A DNA stretch of 64,000 nt from Haloprofundus salinisoli (GTDB lineage Archaea > Halobacteriota > Halobacteria > Halobacteriales > Haloferacaceae). The DNA lies in the NCBI RefSeq assembly GCF_020097815.1, contig NZ_CP083663.1, positions 2,356,001 through 2,420,000 on the forward strand, given 5' to 3'. The translations under genes were made by a program, and so were the position numbers. Shown here in pieces: positions 45,149 through 54,182 of this stretch. The stretch's first letter is position 1. Each line of letters begins with the position of its first letter. The notes below the pieces were generated by a model. That model saw only the letters and a list, made by a program, of their open reading frames with translations, did not search any database and was not told where the DNA came from.

Positions 45149-45205
45149 TGCTCGGTAGGGGATTTGAACCCCTGTCCTCGGCTCGAAAGGCCAAGATGAT
45201 TGGCC
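45149..45205 (-). repeat. attL: displaced 3' fragment of tRNA-Glu, 57 bases
   Basis: This segment is identical to 54108-54164, the 3' 57 bases of tRNA-Glu (T arm, variable loop, anticodon arm and part of the D arm). It then diverges immediately. It has no 5' half, so it is the old 3' end of the tRNA left behind when the element integrated. Confidence 0.93.
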
Positions 45206-45489
45206 CGCGCCTTCGGCGCGTGAGTACCACCAAATACCCGAAATCGGGTTTGTTTCAGCAGTGGATACTACATTCTAATAACCGTAGGTATTTAAAACCC
45301 AGTTGTTTGGCCGACAGCCAAGTGACGTTCGAGCGATTACCGGCAATATATGTTATCTAGATGACTCTTAGAGCCTGCTTGGTATTCCGGGCCAATCTAA
45401 CTCAAATCGCATTTGACCAATCTGTGCCGTCAGAAGTAGGCTGTCTCATCTGTCTCTTCACAGCGTCTCACTATATCGAGTGAGCAAAC
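45206..45489. other. Left end of the element, gene-free
   Basis: A perfect hairpin CGCGCC-TTC-GGCGCG (45206-45220) begins exactly at the end of attL, and a second (ACCCGA-AA-TCGGGT, 45236-45249) follows. The rest is AT-rich with no frame I would call. The hairpins may be terminators for the tRNA side or part of an integrase arm site. Confidence 0.5.
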
Positions 45490-45840
45490 TCACTCATCAA
45501 CAATTTCACATCGGGATGCCCCACGACAGACCAACTTCCCGGACAACCGGATCAGTCGCTCCCTCTCATCAGTTACTTCTCGCATTTCTGGTGCGCCCGC
45601 ACTTTCTGGAGCTGAAACTACCTTCCCAAACCTCGGCTCTGTTGCAAGGTAATCTGCGATAGCGTCATTCCACCCGTCGTATGTGTAGCTGTACGGCTCG
45701 AATTGAACTTCACTGAACTTCTTGTCGTCAACCCAGTGCGTCGCCCTTAATTCGTAGATTTCGAGATACACGGTAGTTCCTACGGCTTCTTCGACACATC
45801 GAGCGGGGGCTTTTGGTGCCATTCTCGTTTCCGAATACAC
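45490..45840 (-). CDS. Hypothetical protein of the element
   Basis: A 116-residue frame (starts MYSETRMAPKAPARCVEEAV; a start at 45822 is also possible). It has an aromatic-rich middle (YELRATHWVDDKKFSEVQF and SYTYDGWNDAIADYL) and no family I know. It overlaps the 3' end of the upstream gene in another frame by about 40-60 bases, as coupled genes may. Codon use is moderately AT-rich like the rest of the element. Confidence 0.5.
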   Translation of the reverse strand: MYSETRMAPKAPARCVEEAVGTTVYLEIYELRATHWVDDKKFSEVQFEPYSYTYDGWNDAIADYLATEPRFGKVVSAPESAGAPEMREVTDERERLIRLSGKLVCRGASRCEIVDE

Positions 45841-46310
45841 ACCCTCGCCTCTTTTTCTCGCTTCTCGGTGAAGGGTTCGTCACAGTTCTGTGCGATTTCG
45901 GCCAACGAAGCCATATTGGGGGCAGAGCTTCTTGCTTCGCTTTCTTTCACTTCCTCACTTACCTCGTACCACTTCGGCTCAGGTCGATTGATTTCGGGCG
46001 CACCGTAAGTTCGTGGATCGAAATCTCTCTCGTGGACGCTTGCATCGCTGGAATCCATCGAACGTGTCTTTCCAACTGATGGTGACTTTGACGCTTTGAA
46101 GCTCTTGCCTCGGACTGACGCTAACCGAGCGTAGTAGTGATGACCACAGACACGAGTAATTTCGACCTCGACCGTCTCACCAACGCCATGGTTGATCTTC
46201 CCGAGGTTGATGTGCTTCTCCCCTCCATCCAGAAACACAATCGCATTGTCCTTCTTGCTGACCCGGTTGATCGTTACCTCCAGTTTGTCTCCCTGTCCCA
46301 AGCCAACCAT
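45780..46310 (-). CDS. Protein with N-terminal TRAM-like OB domain
   Basis: A 176-residue protein. Residues 1-60 (GDKLEVTINRVSKKDNAIVF, INLGKINHGVGETVEVEITR) read as a TRAM-type beta-barrel that binds RNA or DNA in archaeal proteins. The rest is polar and low complexity. A TATA-like GATATAT on the minus strand (46336-46343) is centred about 27-30 bases before the ATG at 46310, so the transcript is probably leaderless. Function in the element is unknown. Confidence 0.6.
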   Translation of the reverse strand: MVGLGQGDKLEVTINRVSKKDNAIVFLDGGEKHINLGKINHGVGETVEVEITRVCGHHYYARLASVRGKSFKASKSPSVGKTRSMDSSDASVHERDFDPRTYGAPEINRPEPKWYEVSEEVKESEARSSAPNMASLAEIAQNCDEPFTEKREKEARVCIRKREWHQKPPLDVSKKP

Positions 46311-46335
46311 ACACACATTCTCTCAGGACAACTGA

Positions 46336-46343
46336 TATATCTA
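46336..46343 (-). promoter_or_regulatory. TATA-like box of the TRAM-like gene
   Basis: AGATATAT on the minus strand lies at the archaeal TATA distance from the start at 46310. Confidence 0.5.
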
Positions 46344-52084: not shown

Positions 52085-52313
52085 AGATGGAATGGACGCT
52101 ACGGCAGTAGCTACTACTGGACGACATTGAGACTCAGAGTAGATTCCGCCGGAAAAGGTCCTCACTTTACTAGACGGGGTCCCGCTTCTTAATTCTGGCG
52201 TGTGAAGACTGTAGCATTGCCAATTCGACTTCTACACAACAGACTGCAACATAGCGACTATCGAAGAGAAAATCAAAAACTGAAGCCGTGTTCTGCCCTC
52301 TTCTACCCCCGGT

Positions 52314-52847
52314 CTATCGTATCGAGTCGTGCATCTTTCGGAGGTAATCGTGTAGTATCTCACTCAACCCCTCGATGAGTCCATTCTCGGATTCGTAATG
52401 TCGAAGCAATCCCTTGTCGTCGAACGCGCCCAATTCTTCGAACGTCCGAAGCCGGAAGTACCGACCTATCGAGGGGTCACGACTCTCGAAGTAATCGGCG
52501 TAGTCCATGAGGTCGAAATACGCGGCGTAGGGAAGCGGTCGAAGCCCAAAGTCCGCCACTTCAACGAACCCGTCAGTCACCGCCCCAATCTCCTGCTCGA
52601 TGAGTCCGAGCATCTCTTCTTCTTCGGTGTCCATGTGGAGTTTCAGGAGTGCCGCAAGGAGTGGTGTTCCAGACGGAAATCCAGTTTCCTTGGGAGCGTT
52701 CTCGCGATACGCTGTACCGATTGTCTCATCGAGTATCCGCCCCTCGATGCGTTTTTTCTCGGCGTGCGACCCCGACAGGCCATACTCCACAATCAGCCGC
52801 TCAGTCTCGTCCACGTCGTGTAGGTAGTTCTCTGTCATCGTGTTCAT
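52314..52847 (-). CDS. Acidic protein coupled to the integrase
   Basis: A 177-residue acidic helical protein (MNTMTENYLHDVDETERLIV). Its start overlaps the integrase stop (ATGA type), so the two are probably co-translated. No family is recognised. It could be an excision or regulatory partner, which is inference from position only. Confidence 0.6.
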   Translation of the reverse strand: MNTMTENYLHDVDETERLIVEYGLSGSHAEKKRIEGRILDETIGTAYRENAPKETGFPSGTPLLAALLKLHMDTEEEEMLGLIEQEIGAVTDGFVEVADFGLRPLPYAAYFDLMDYADYFESRDPSIGRYFRLRTFEELGAFDDKGLLRHYESENGLIEGLSEILHDYLRKMHDSIR

Positions 52848-53956
52848 CCCATCCGGTCAAGCGCGTTCCGTCGATCTTCTACCGGTGCTTGGTCGTACTT
52901 CATCGTCGTTTGCTCGCTCTTGTGTCGGAGTTGAGCCTTCGCCGCCGCAAGGTCACGTTCGTGGGTCATCGCAGTTCCCGTGGAATGACGAAGCGCATAC
53001 CAGCTCATCTGCCGGTTCTCCGTCGGAATCCCAGCTATCTCGCAGAGCTTCACGAGAAGACGCCGAAGACTCTGTGTCTGGTATGGATTTCCCTCGCGGG
53101 TCAGCCACAATTCATCGGTATCGTCGTACTTCTCGTACCGTCCGCGCTCACTCAGCCACCGTTCGAGGGCATCGGCGGTACGGTCAGAGAGTGCAACGAC
53201 CCAGTTCCCTTCGTTCTTCGCGGAGTCTTCCTTCGGGATACGGAGTACGCTGTTCTCCACATCGACCCACGATACTTTCGCACGCTCCACCTCGGTGGGT
53301 CGAAGCCCGCAGTCGAGACTCGCCCACGTGATCGAGGTGAACTTCCAACTGTTCGCTCGCTTCCAGTCGTCCGGTGTCACCTCTGACTTAGGCTTCCCGA
53401 ACCGTTGTGCGAGGAGTGCTTTCCACTCGTCGCGGTCGCCCGGAGAGAGACTACTGTACGATGGTATGGAACCGTAGTCCAGCGCGGCTTCACGAACCTG
53501 TTTCCGCTCCTCGATGGTGAGAAACTCGCGTGGTCCAGCGTCAGTATTCGCGTTGCTGAAGGTACGCTCTGGCTCCCACAGGGTATCACCTTTCTCGTTA
53601 GAACGCCACTTGAACAGGCGCTTGAGAGCCTTCTGCGTGTTCGCCTTGTGGGTGGCTGAGTTATCCGAGTAGAGGAGTTCGGTCATGTAGGCGTCCGCGT
53701 GGTCGTGGGTGAACGCGACTGTGTAGCCGTCCTCCTGTTCTGTCCACACCTGCCGTGCGAACTGGTCGGTACGGTACGCCGTCGCTCGGATAGTGTCTCG
53801 TCCGTAGCCTTCTGCGAGGTCAGGATTCTTACCGAGATGGATGAGCCAACGAACGAACTCGATGCGGTGAGCCTCGTAGTCAACCACCTGCTTCTCTTTC
53901 AGTAATTCCCGACTTTTGTCCGTCACAAGCGGGAAATCTTCGGGGCTGAGACTCAT
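52844..53956 (-). CDS. Tyrosine recombinase/integrase
   Basis: A 370-residue site-specific recombinase of phage/XerCD-type. The N-terminal SAM-like core-binding part runs to about residue 140. The catalytic part has the first Arg in DCGLRPTEVERAK, the second Arg in SWYALRHSTGTAM (H replaced by Y at the usual H-x-x-R), the His/Trp-position in AQLRHKSEQTTM and the nucleophile in KYDQAP. It sits 152 bases from the intact tRNA-Glu, in the usual position for a tRNA-targeting integrase. It probably drives integration and excision between the 57-base repeats. Confidence 0.92.
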   Translation of the reverse strand: MSLSPEDFPLVTDKSRELLKEKQVVDYEAHRIEFVRWLIHLGKNPDLAEGYGRDTIRATAYRTDQFARQVWTEQEDGYTVAFTHDHADAYMTELLYSDNSATHKANTQKALKRLFKWRSNEKGDTLWEPERTFSNANTDAGPREFLTIEERKQVREAALDYGSIPSYSSLSPGDRDEWKALLAQRFGKPKSEVTPDDWKRANSWKFTSITWASLDCGLRPTEVERAKVSWVDVENSVLRIPKEDSAKNEGNWVVALSDRTADALERWLSERGRYEKYDDTDELWLTREGNPYQTQSLRRLLVKLCEIAGIPTENRQMSWYALRHSTGTAMTHERDLAAAKAQLRHKSEQTTMKYDQAPVEDRRNALDRMG

Positions 53957-54107
53957 CGGGAGTCTCCCGTTTCGTAAATTGAGCCTGACAGAAATGCTAA
54001 TCGCTGTACGGCAGTGGGGTAGCTATTCGGTCGAATCGAATTGGCCTGTGGGGTGAACATAGTTTTGTCACTCCACGGCTGAAAACAGGCGGTAGAAGCC
54101 TTGAGGA

Positions 54108-54164
54108 TGCTCGGTAGGGGATTTGAACCCCTGTCCTCGGCTCGAAAGGCCAAGATGATTGGCC
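54108..54164 (-). repeat. attR: 3' part of the intact tRNA-Glu
   Basis: Identical over 57 bases to attL (45149-45205). Divergence begins exactly at the D arm (GGACTA here, CGCGCC at attL). Confidence 0.93.
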
Positions 54165-54182
54165 GGACTACACCAACCGAGC
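54108..54182 (-). tRNA. tRNA-Glu (UUC), integration target
   Basis: On the minus strand, acceptor GCTCGGT pairs with ACCGAGC, and the anticodon stem TTGGC/GCCGA holds loop CTTTCGA with anticodon TTC. T arm GGGTTCAAATCCC is normal and the discriminator is A. The 3' 57 bases are repeated at 45149-45205. The tRNA stays complete because the element supplies the same 3' end. Confidence 0.93.

Follow-up and report, generated by a model that had tools for sequence, protein, structure and literature searches.

A tRNA-Glu integrative element of a haloarchaeon that carries a Type IIG-like restriction-modification enzyme

Is the AT-richer block of DNA that adjoins a tRNA-Glu(TTC) gene of Haloprofundus salinisoli an integrative element and, if so, how might it move and what does it carry? 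We addressed these questions in a 64-kb window (the whole stretch of DNA analyzed) from a 3.0-Mb contig of this haloarchaeal genome. Nucleotides 19–75 of the tRNA gene are duplicated as a perfect 57-bp direct repeat, the two copies start 8,959 bp apart, which is the size of the element, and the GC content of this unit is 0.508 versus 0.643 and 0.646 in the ~10 kb on either side. Chance origin of an exact 57-bp repeat of part of a tRNA gene is not credible. A previous sequence-only reading of the window had described two identical 57-base tRNA-Glu copies around ~9 kb of AT-richer DNA, which the exact repeat and the GC values bear out, although its repeat end at 45206 lies one base too far and should be 45205. 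With a repeat of the tRNA 3' part at both ends and an intact tRNA gene, the unit has the organization of class II pNOB8-type elements. On sequence grounds, the integrative element is real, belongs to a general kind already known, and is probably mobile. As we discuss below, several comparisons support this assignment.

Features of the element (window coordinates; aa, amino acids; ORF, open reading frame)
Feature	Position	Strand	Evidence or remark
Second copy of tRNA-Glu nucleotides 19–75, attR	45149..45205	-	57/57 identity to 54108–54164
GC hairpin CGCGCC-GAA-GGCGCG, inside element, abuts tRNA core	45206..45220	-	Identical in G212
TATA-like element TTTTAAATA, proposed promoter of small ORF–integrase–P0003 operon in excised circle	45289..45297	-	Predicted start near 45270
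P0006, 116-aa ORF, may not be a gene	45490..45840	-	Homologue searches found none
P0005, 178 aa, probable gene	45780..46316	-	Weak phrog_38202 match; one 36% homologue
Type IIG-like restriction-modification enzyme, 1259 aa	47205..50984	+	PD-(D/E)XK (PDY61...EFK77), GEFYTP409, DPSCGSGTF438, NPPY701, TaqI_C specificity region
P0004, up to 270 aa (ATG at 52084 likelier start)	51353..52165	-	phrog_12649, 6e-10; conserved in small haloarchaeal tRNA islands
P0003, 177 aa, start overlaps integrase stop (ATGA)	52314..52847	-	Homologues adjoining Glu(TTC) integrases in G212, G220, G010
Tyrosine integrase, 370 aa, HSTV2-family-like, pNOB8-type signature	52844..53956	-	Pfam Phage_integrase 1e-17; 52% to HSTV-2 integrase; tree
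35-aa ORF MFTPQANSIRPNSYPTAVQRLAFLSGSIYETGDSR, overlaps integrase start by ATGA	53953..54060	-	Counterparts in G212, G220, G010, G011
Intact tRNA-Glu(TTC), attL, nucleotides 19–75 = duplicated core	54108..54182	-	ARAGORN; Rfam tRNA 54 bits; exact repeat

First, the site is unoccupied in relatives. The flanking genes, which encode a 3-hydroxyacyl-CoA dehydrogenase/enoyl-CoA hydratase (54243–56270) and a DUF7344 protein (44549–45061), are 9.2 kb apart in the window, ~1.1–1.2 kb apart in three other species of the genus (G001, G002, G004), and 2.5 kb apart in a fourth (G003), where the left flank aligns unbroken into the tRNA gene. All four sampled congeners lack the element and have one intact tRNA-Glu gene. 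Second, a genome from another genus of the same family (G212) has an element with the same gene order at the same tRNA, bounded by its own repeat (56 nt, one mismatch, copies 8,524 bp apart), with identities of 87% for the integrase, 58% for P0003, 60% for P0004, and 59% for the restriction-modification (R-M) enzyme. The integrase is more alike than the host flanking gene (77% identity), which fits transfer. The sequence-only reading had suggested looking for empty sites, whose absence it took as refutation, and for the same element elsewhere; both searches succeeded. Partial copies of the tRNA 3' end also occur ~75–95 bp from the intact tRNA-Glu gene in G001 (L146:893-912) and, less clearly, in G002 and G004 (L147, L148); these copies are likely scars of earlier insertions.

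Third, the integrase gene begins 152 bp away from the 3' end of the tRNA, just inside the intact tRNA as had been proposed, is whole after integration, and encodes the catalytic signature RPTE219, YALR320 (YxxR), and KY353-354 (R219...Y354). Exact repeats, empty congener sites, the same element in a second genus, and this intact integrase together uphold the earlier identification of a tyrosine-integrase island in tRNA-Glu. Alternatively, the island could be fixed, with excision lost and the R-M enzyme a resident chromosomal gene. Broken integrases in related elements of other genomes (e.g., L025, L027) speak for this reading, but here the integrase ORF and the overlapping operon are whole and the two att repeats are intact with zero divergence, and we consider a fixed island unlikely.

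The integrase is 51.7% identical to the HSTV-2 integrase over 95% of its length, and PF00589 was the sole Pfam domain detected. Assigned by similarity (thresholds of ≥30% identity to HSTV-2 integrase across 60% of the length, and PF00589 only), it falls in the HSTV2 family, which is so far confined to Halobacteria and their mobile elements and viruses (Badel et al., 2021, PMC8371274). Integrase matches were present in 22 of 40 relatives, and most of the related integrases examined lie ~100–430 bp from a tRNA-Glu, Gly, Thr, Leu, or Ser gene; named genomes with close relatives include Halobium salinum and Natribaculum breve. In a maximum-likelihood tree, the tRNA target tracks integrase lineage (11 changes versus a shuffled mean of 21.0), and the window integrase groups with Glu(TTC) island integrases, with HSTV-2 (tRNA-Leu) as the nearest virus, and apart from the HF1-group Thr integrases. 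The genome of the window contains a second HSTV2-type element, at tRNA-Gly(TCC) (~373000–379000 in L018, G000:C1:368000-387900), with ~5.5 kb between 42-bp repeats and an alpha/beta hydrolase among its genes. HSTV2-type integrases at tRNA-Ser(TGA) (L164:9755-17311, L166, L168; also L021, L167, L170) lie on the 5' side of the tRNA, and where a second copy was found the duplicated part was the tRNA 5' half; a 2021 review termed pTN3-like integrases unique in archaea in using that half.

How might the integrase be expressed? In tRNA orientation, the distal arm of the element consists of the TATA-like element, ~70 nt, the hairpin, and the tRNA core, and its 200 bp next to the core are 58–82% identical to G212, with alignment at background level further in. 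Six of nine elements have a TATA motif 91–97 bp ahead of the core, and the background chance of such a motif was 0.003–0.011 per site. Spacing from the TATA motif to the T-loop (GGTTCAA) was 127 bp here, 124–128 bp in 12 of 13 sites, and 135 bp in L012; these 13 sites comprise six elements and seven viruses, and the near-identity of the four Mincapvirus sequences lowers the number of independent cases. In six of the nine elements a hairpin ends precisely where the core begins, and hairpins with a GNA loop are also present in virus attP sites; the combined p of 3e-12 counts two close relatives as independent and refers to a layout chosen post hoc, and thus is descriptive only. At the equivalent place in HF2, promoter T-40936 has been shown experimentally to drive transcription through attP into HrrHF2_445 and the integrase; the same TATA is active in the methylase direction as well (PMC8707807). 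In the computed circular form of the window element, the promoter would lie 300 bp before the integrase start, with the 35-aa ORF, whose position matches HF2 HrrHF2_445 and HRTV-15 gp44, between them. Based upon the TATA motif in the distal arm and the homology to HF2, excision would bring the promoter in front of the integrase, with attP between the two, and integration would part them again. New here are this conserved promoter-attP-integrase layout, the connection to viruses, and the family context. A different idea, that the distal arm provides a 5' acceptor strand and pairs with the tRNA copy to form a pseudo-tRNA, was rejected (combined p = 0.49, nine elements).

Besides the integrase, the element encodes the R-M protein, four further ORFs without a Pfam match, and the 35-aa ORF; the earlier gene list contained the R-M protein and the four unknown ORFs and overlooked the smallest. 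Matches to HSDR_N, N6_Mtase, Eco57I, and TaqI_C in Pfam and partial matches to PADLOC Type IIG profiles support the earlier reading of this cargo as a single-chain R-M enzyme; nuclease, methyltransferase, and specificity domains with catalytic motifs in one chain are the hallmarks of Type IIG. PDY61, EFK77, GEFYTP409, and NPPY701 were invariant in 21 homologues, and motif I was the same except for A in place of S in three of them. As judged from its motifs, the enzyme appears intact. Identity to homologues is ~64–85% over residues 1–700 and ~61–66% over residues 1151–1250, but 15–31% over residues 801–1100, where GC content at third codon positions also falls from 0.56–0.76 to 0.30–0.46, a dip shared with G212. 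Because low identity is confined to residues ~801–1100 and coincides with this dip, we infer that the recognition region has been swapped as a block and the engine retained. Among 20 homologues from other genomes, 9 are <1 kb from a tRNA gene (binomial p ~2e-9 against an assumed 3% background, which is an estimate from ~50 tRNA genes per 3.5 Mb and not a measurement). The defence role that the sequence-only reading proposed, with element and host both protected, is plausible and, given the make-up of the enzyme, likely; HF1-group viruses carry the same enzyme family, and there protection of the cell need not apply. Upstream of the R-M gene, a 0.9-kb non-coding stretch contains AT-rich inverted and direct repeats (21-nt arms, 46838–46998), a possible operator or origin.

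The HF1-group enzyme is 56% identical to the window enzyme. In HRTV-15 and HF2, it lies across attP from the integrase and points away, which is the order in the circularized window element. Published work noted that the methylase adjoins attP and suggested its capture from host DNA upon excision (PMC7230728); a tRNA island with this enzyme is the type of source that such capture requires, with no direction of transfer implied. In HCTV-6 (L194:2627-4107), a gene annotated as Type IIG directly follows the integrase in convergent orientation, and the partial sequence compared gave no P0001 match.

Could the element then be a degraded HF1-group (Hafunaviridae) provirus, of which only the integrase-attP-methylase corner is left? 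The shared relative order of integrase, attP, small genes, and Type IIG enzyme is what such a remnant would keep. By contrast, its integrase belongs with the Glu(TTC) island integrases, neither att site is damaged, G212 has the same compact set of genes, and P0003 and P0004 were not found in the virus collections searched (IMG/VR for both), despite a weak PHROG match for P0004. In agreement with the sequence-only reading, no capsid, terminase, portal, or other structural family was matched among the element proteins in Pfam or PHROGs, and by that measure the element is not an HF1-group provirus. We therefore regard a viral remnant as improbable. A satellite mobilized by an HF1-group or HSTV2-group helper, with the common attP and integrase design reflecting helper dependence, seems to us marginally less probable still: related integrases, attP layout, and the R-M enzyme are held in common with viruses, but no packaging, capsid, or virion gene was recognized by the same searches and the tRNA targets differ from those of known viruses.

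The favored explanation is a mobile 8.96-kb element that combines a promoter active in the circle with a Type IIG payload. Site-specific recombination between attP (tRNA-Glu nucleotides 19–75) and the chromosomal tRNA-Glu(TTC) gene would insert it and leave the tRNA intact. In the excised circle, the TATA promoter would read across attP into the small ORF, the integrase, and P0003, so that integrase would be made when the element is free. In the integrated state, the promoter would lie at the opposite end of the element from the integrase, which would follow the tRNA-Glu gene; this arrangement would limit further recombination. The payload would methylate its site in the DNA of host and element alike and cut incoming DNA that lacks the modification, and its specificity would be renewed through exchange of the recognition region. 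Several points weigh against this account. Three of the nine elements have no TATA motif at the fixed position, and three have no abutting hairpin. The tRNA-Glu promoter may sustain integrase transcription after integration. P0003 and P0004 have no assignable function, and their structure models are of low confidence. Finally, the excised circle, integrase activity, methylation, and restriction are predictions from sequence. Taken as a whole, we judge the explanation probable.

The partner genes place the element in a wider set. Beyond the homologues in the table, P0003 had one further marginal match, and its model (predicted local distance difference test score, pLDDT, 60.5) gave no Protein Data Bank (PDB) match at E ≤ 0.001. 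Within the order, 21 of 243 genomes encode P0004; nearly every copy is close to a tRNA gene, and its integrase partners are of two types, one HSTV2-type and the other with a SAM domain. A TFB-like cyclin fold for P0004, noticed by eye only, is not claimed; profile searches against PDB and Pfam found nothing, and the model pLDDT was 44.5. Proteins of the P0004 family also mark small tRNA islands (L058-L075; mostly 3–7 kb) whose opposite end carries the SAM-domain integrase and whose cargo includes, for example, HNH plus SHOCT, a DpnII/MboI-type nuclease, Fic, or pentapeptide proteins. In Natribaculum breve (G220), from another family, the integrase (75%), P0003 (50%), and P0004 (59%) are kept, and a Type I-like methyltransferase and other genes replace the Type IIG enzyme. 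Among plasmids, no close copy of the whole element was found. We tentatively suggest, at somewhat less than even confidence, a haloarchaeal family of small, non-viral integrative islands with a fixed core (small ORF, HSTV2-type integrase, P0003, P0004), an exchanged payload (Type IIG enzyme, Type I methyltransferase, others), a promoter-attP-integrase switch shared with tailed viruses that would activate the integrase in the circle and silence it in the chromosome, and R-M specificity genes that might shuttle between island and virus across attP.

The element offers a compact, complete example of how haloarchaeal restriction enzymes may travel, and ties the uneven distribution of R-M genes among Halobacteria to one particular integrase family shared with tailed viruses. 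The fixed geometry of promoter, attP, and integrase yields a concrete prediction of self-limited archaeal integration, and P0004, as a marker of the wider set of tRNA islands, provides a search handle for new cargo.

Comparison with known systems shows both likenesses and differences. Like HSTV2-family integrases, the window protein has a single PF00589 domain, 52% identity to HSTV-2 XerCD, and a gene adjoining its tRNA target, but the island that it serves is 9 kb long and carries no virus genes, and its target is tRNA-Glu(TTC), whereas a tRNA-Leu-like sequence adjoins the HSTV-2 integrase. The R-M protein shares with Type IIG enzymes a PD-(D/E)XK nuclease, GEFYTP/DPSCGSGTF/NPPY amino-methyltransferase motifs, and a TaqI_C-type specificity domain, but belongs to a haloarchaeal and haloviral subfamily that PADLOC and NCBIfam profiles match only partly. 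It also partially matches BREX PglX over the methyltransferase region, but has an N-terminal nuclease domain; identity as PglX was rejected, as the match scored 141 bits versus an NCBIfam cut-off of 400 and no other BREX gene (pglZ/brxC) is present in the element. Finally, the HF1-group MDR-C region (PMC7230728, PMC8707807) differs in its tRNA-Thr attP, an integrase only ~40% identical, the absence of P0003 and P0004, and the 76-kb virus genome around it, but has the same promoter, truncated tRNA attP, small ORF, and integrase, with a divergent Type IIG enzyme beyond attP.

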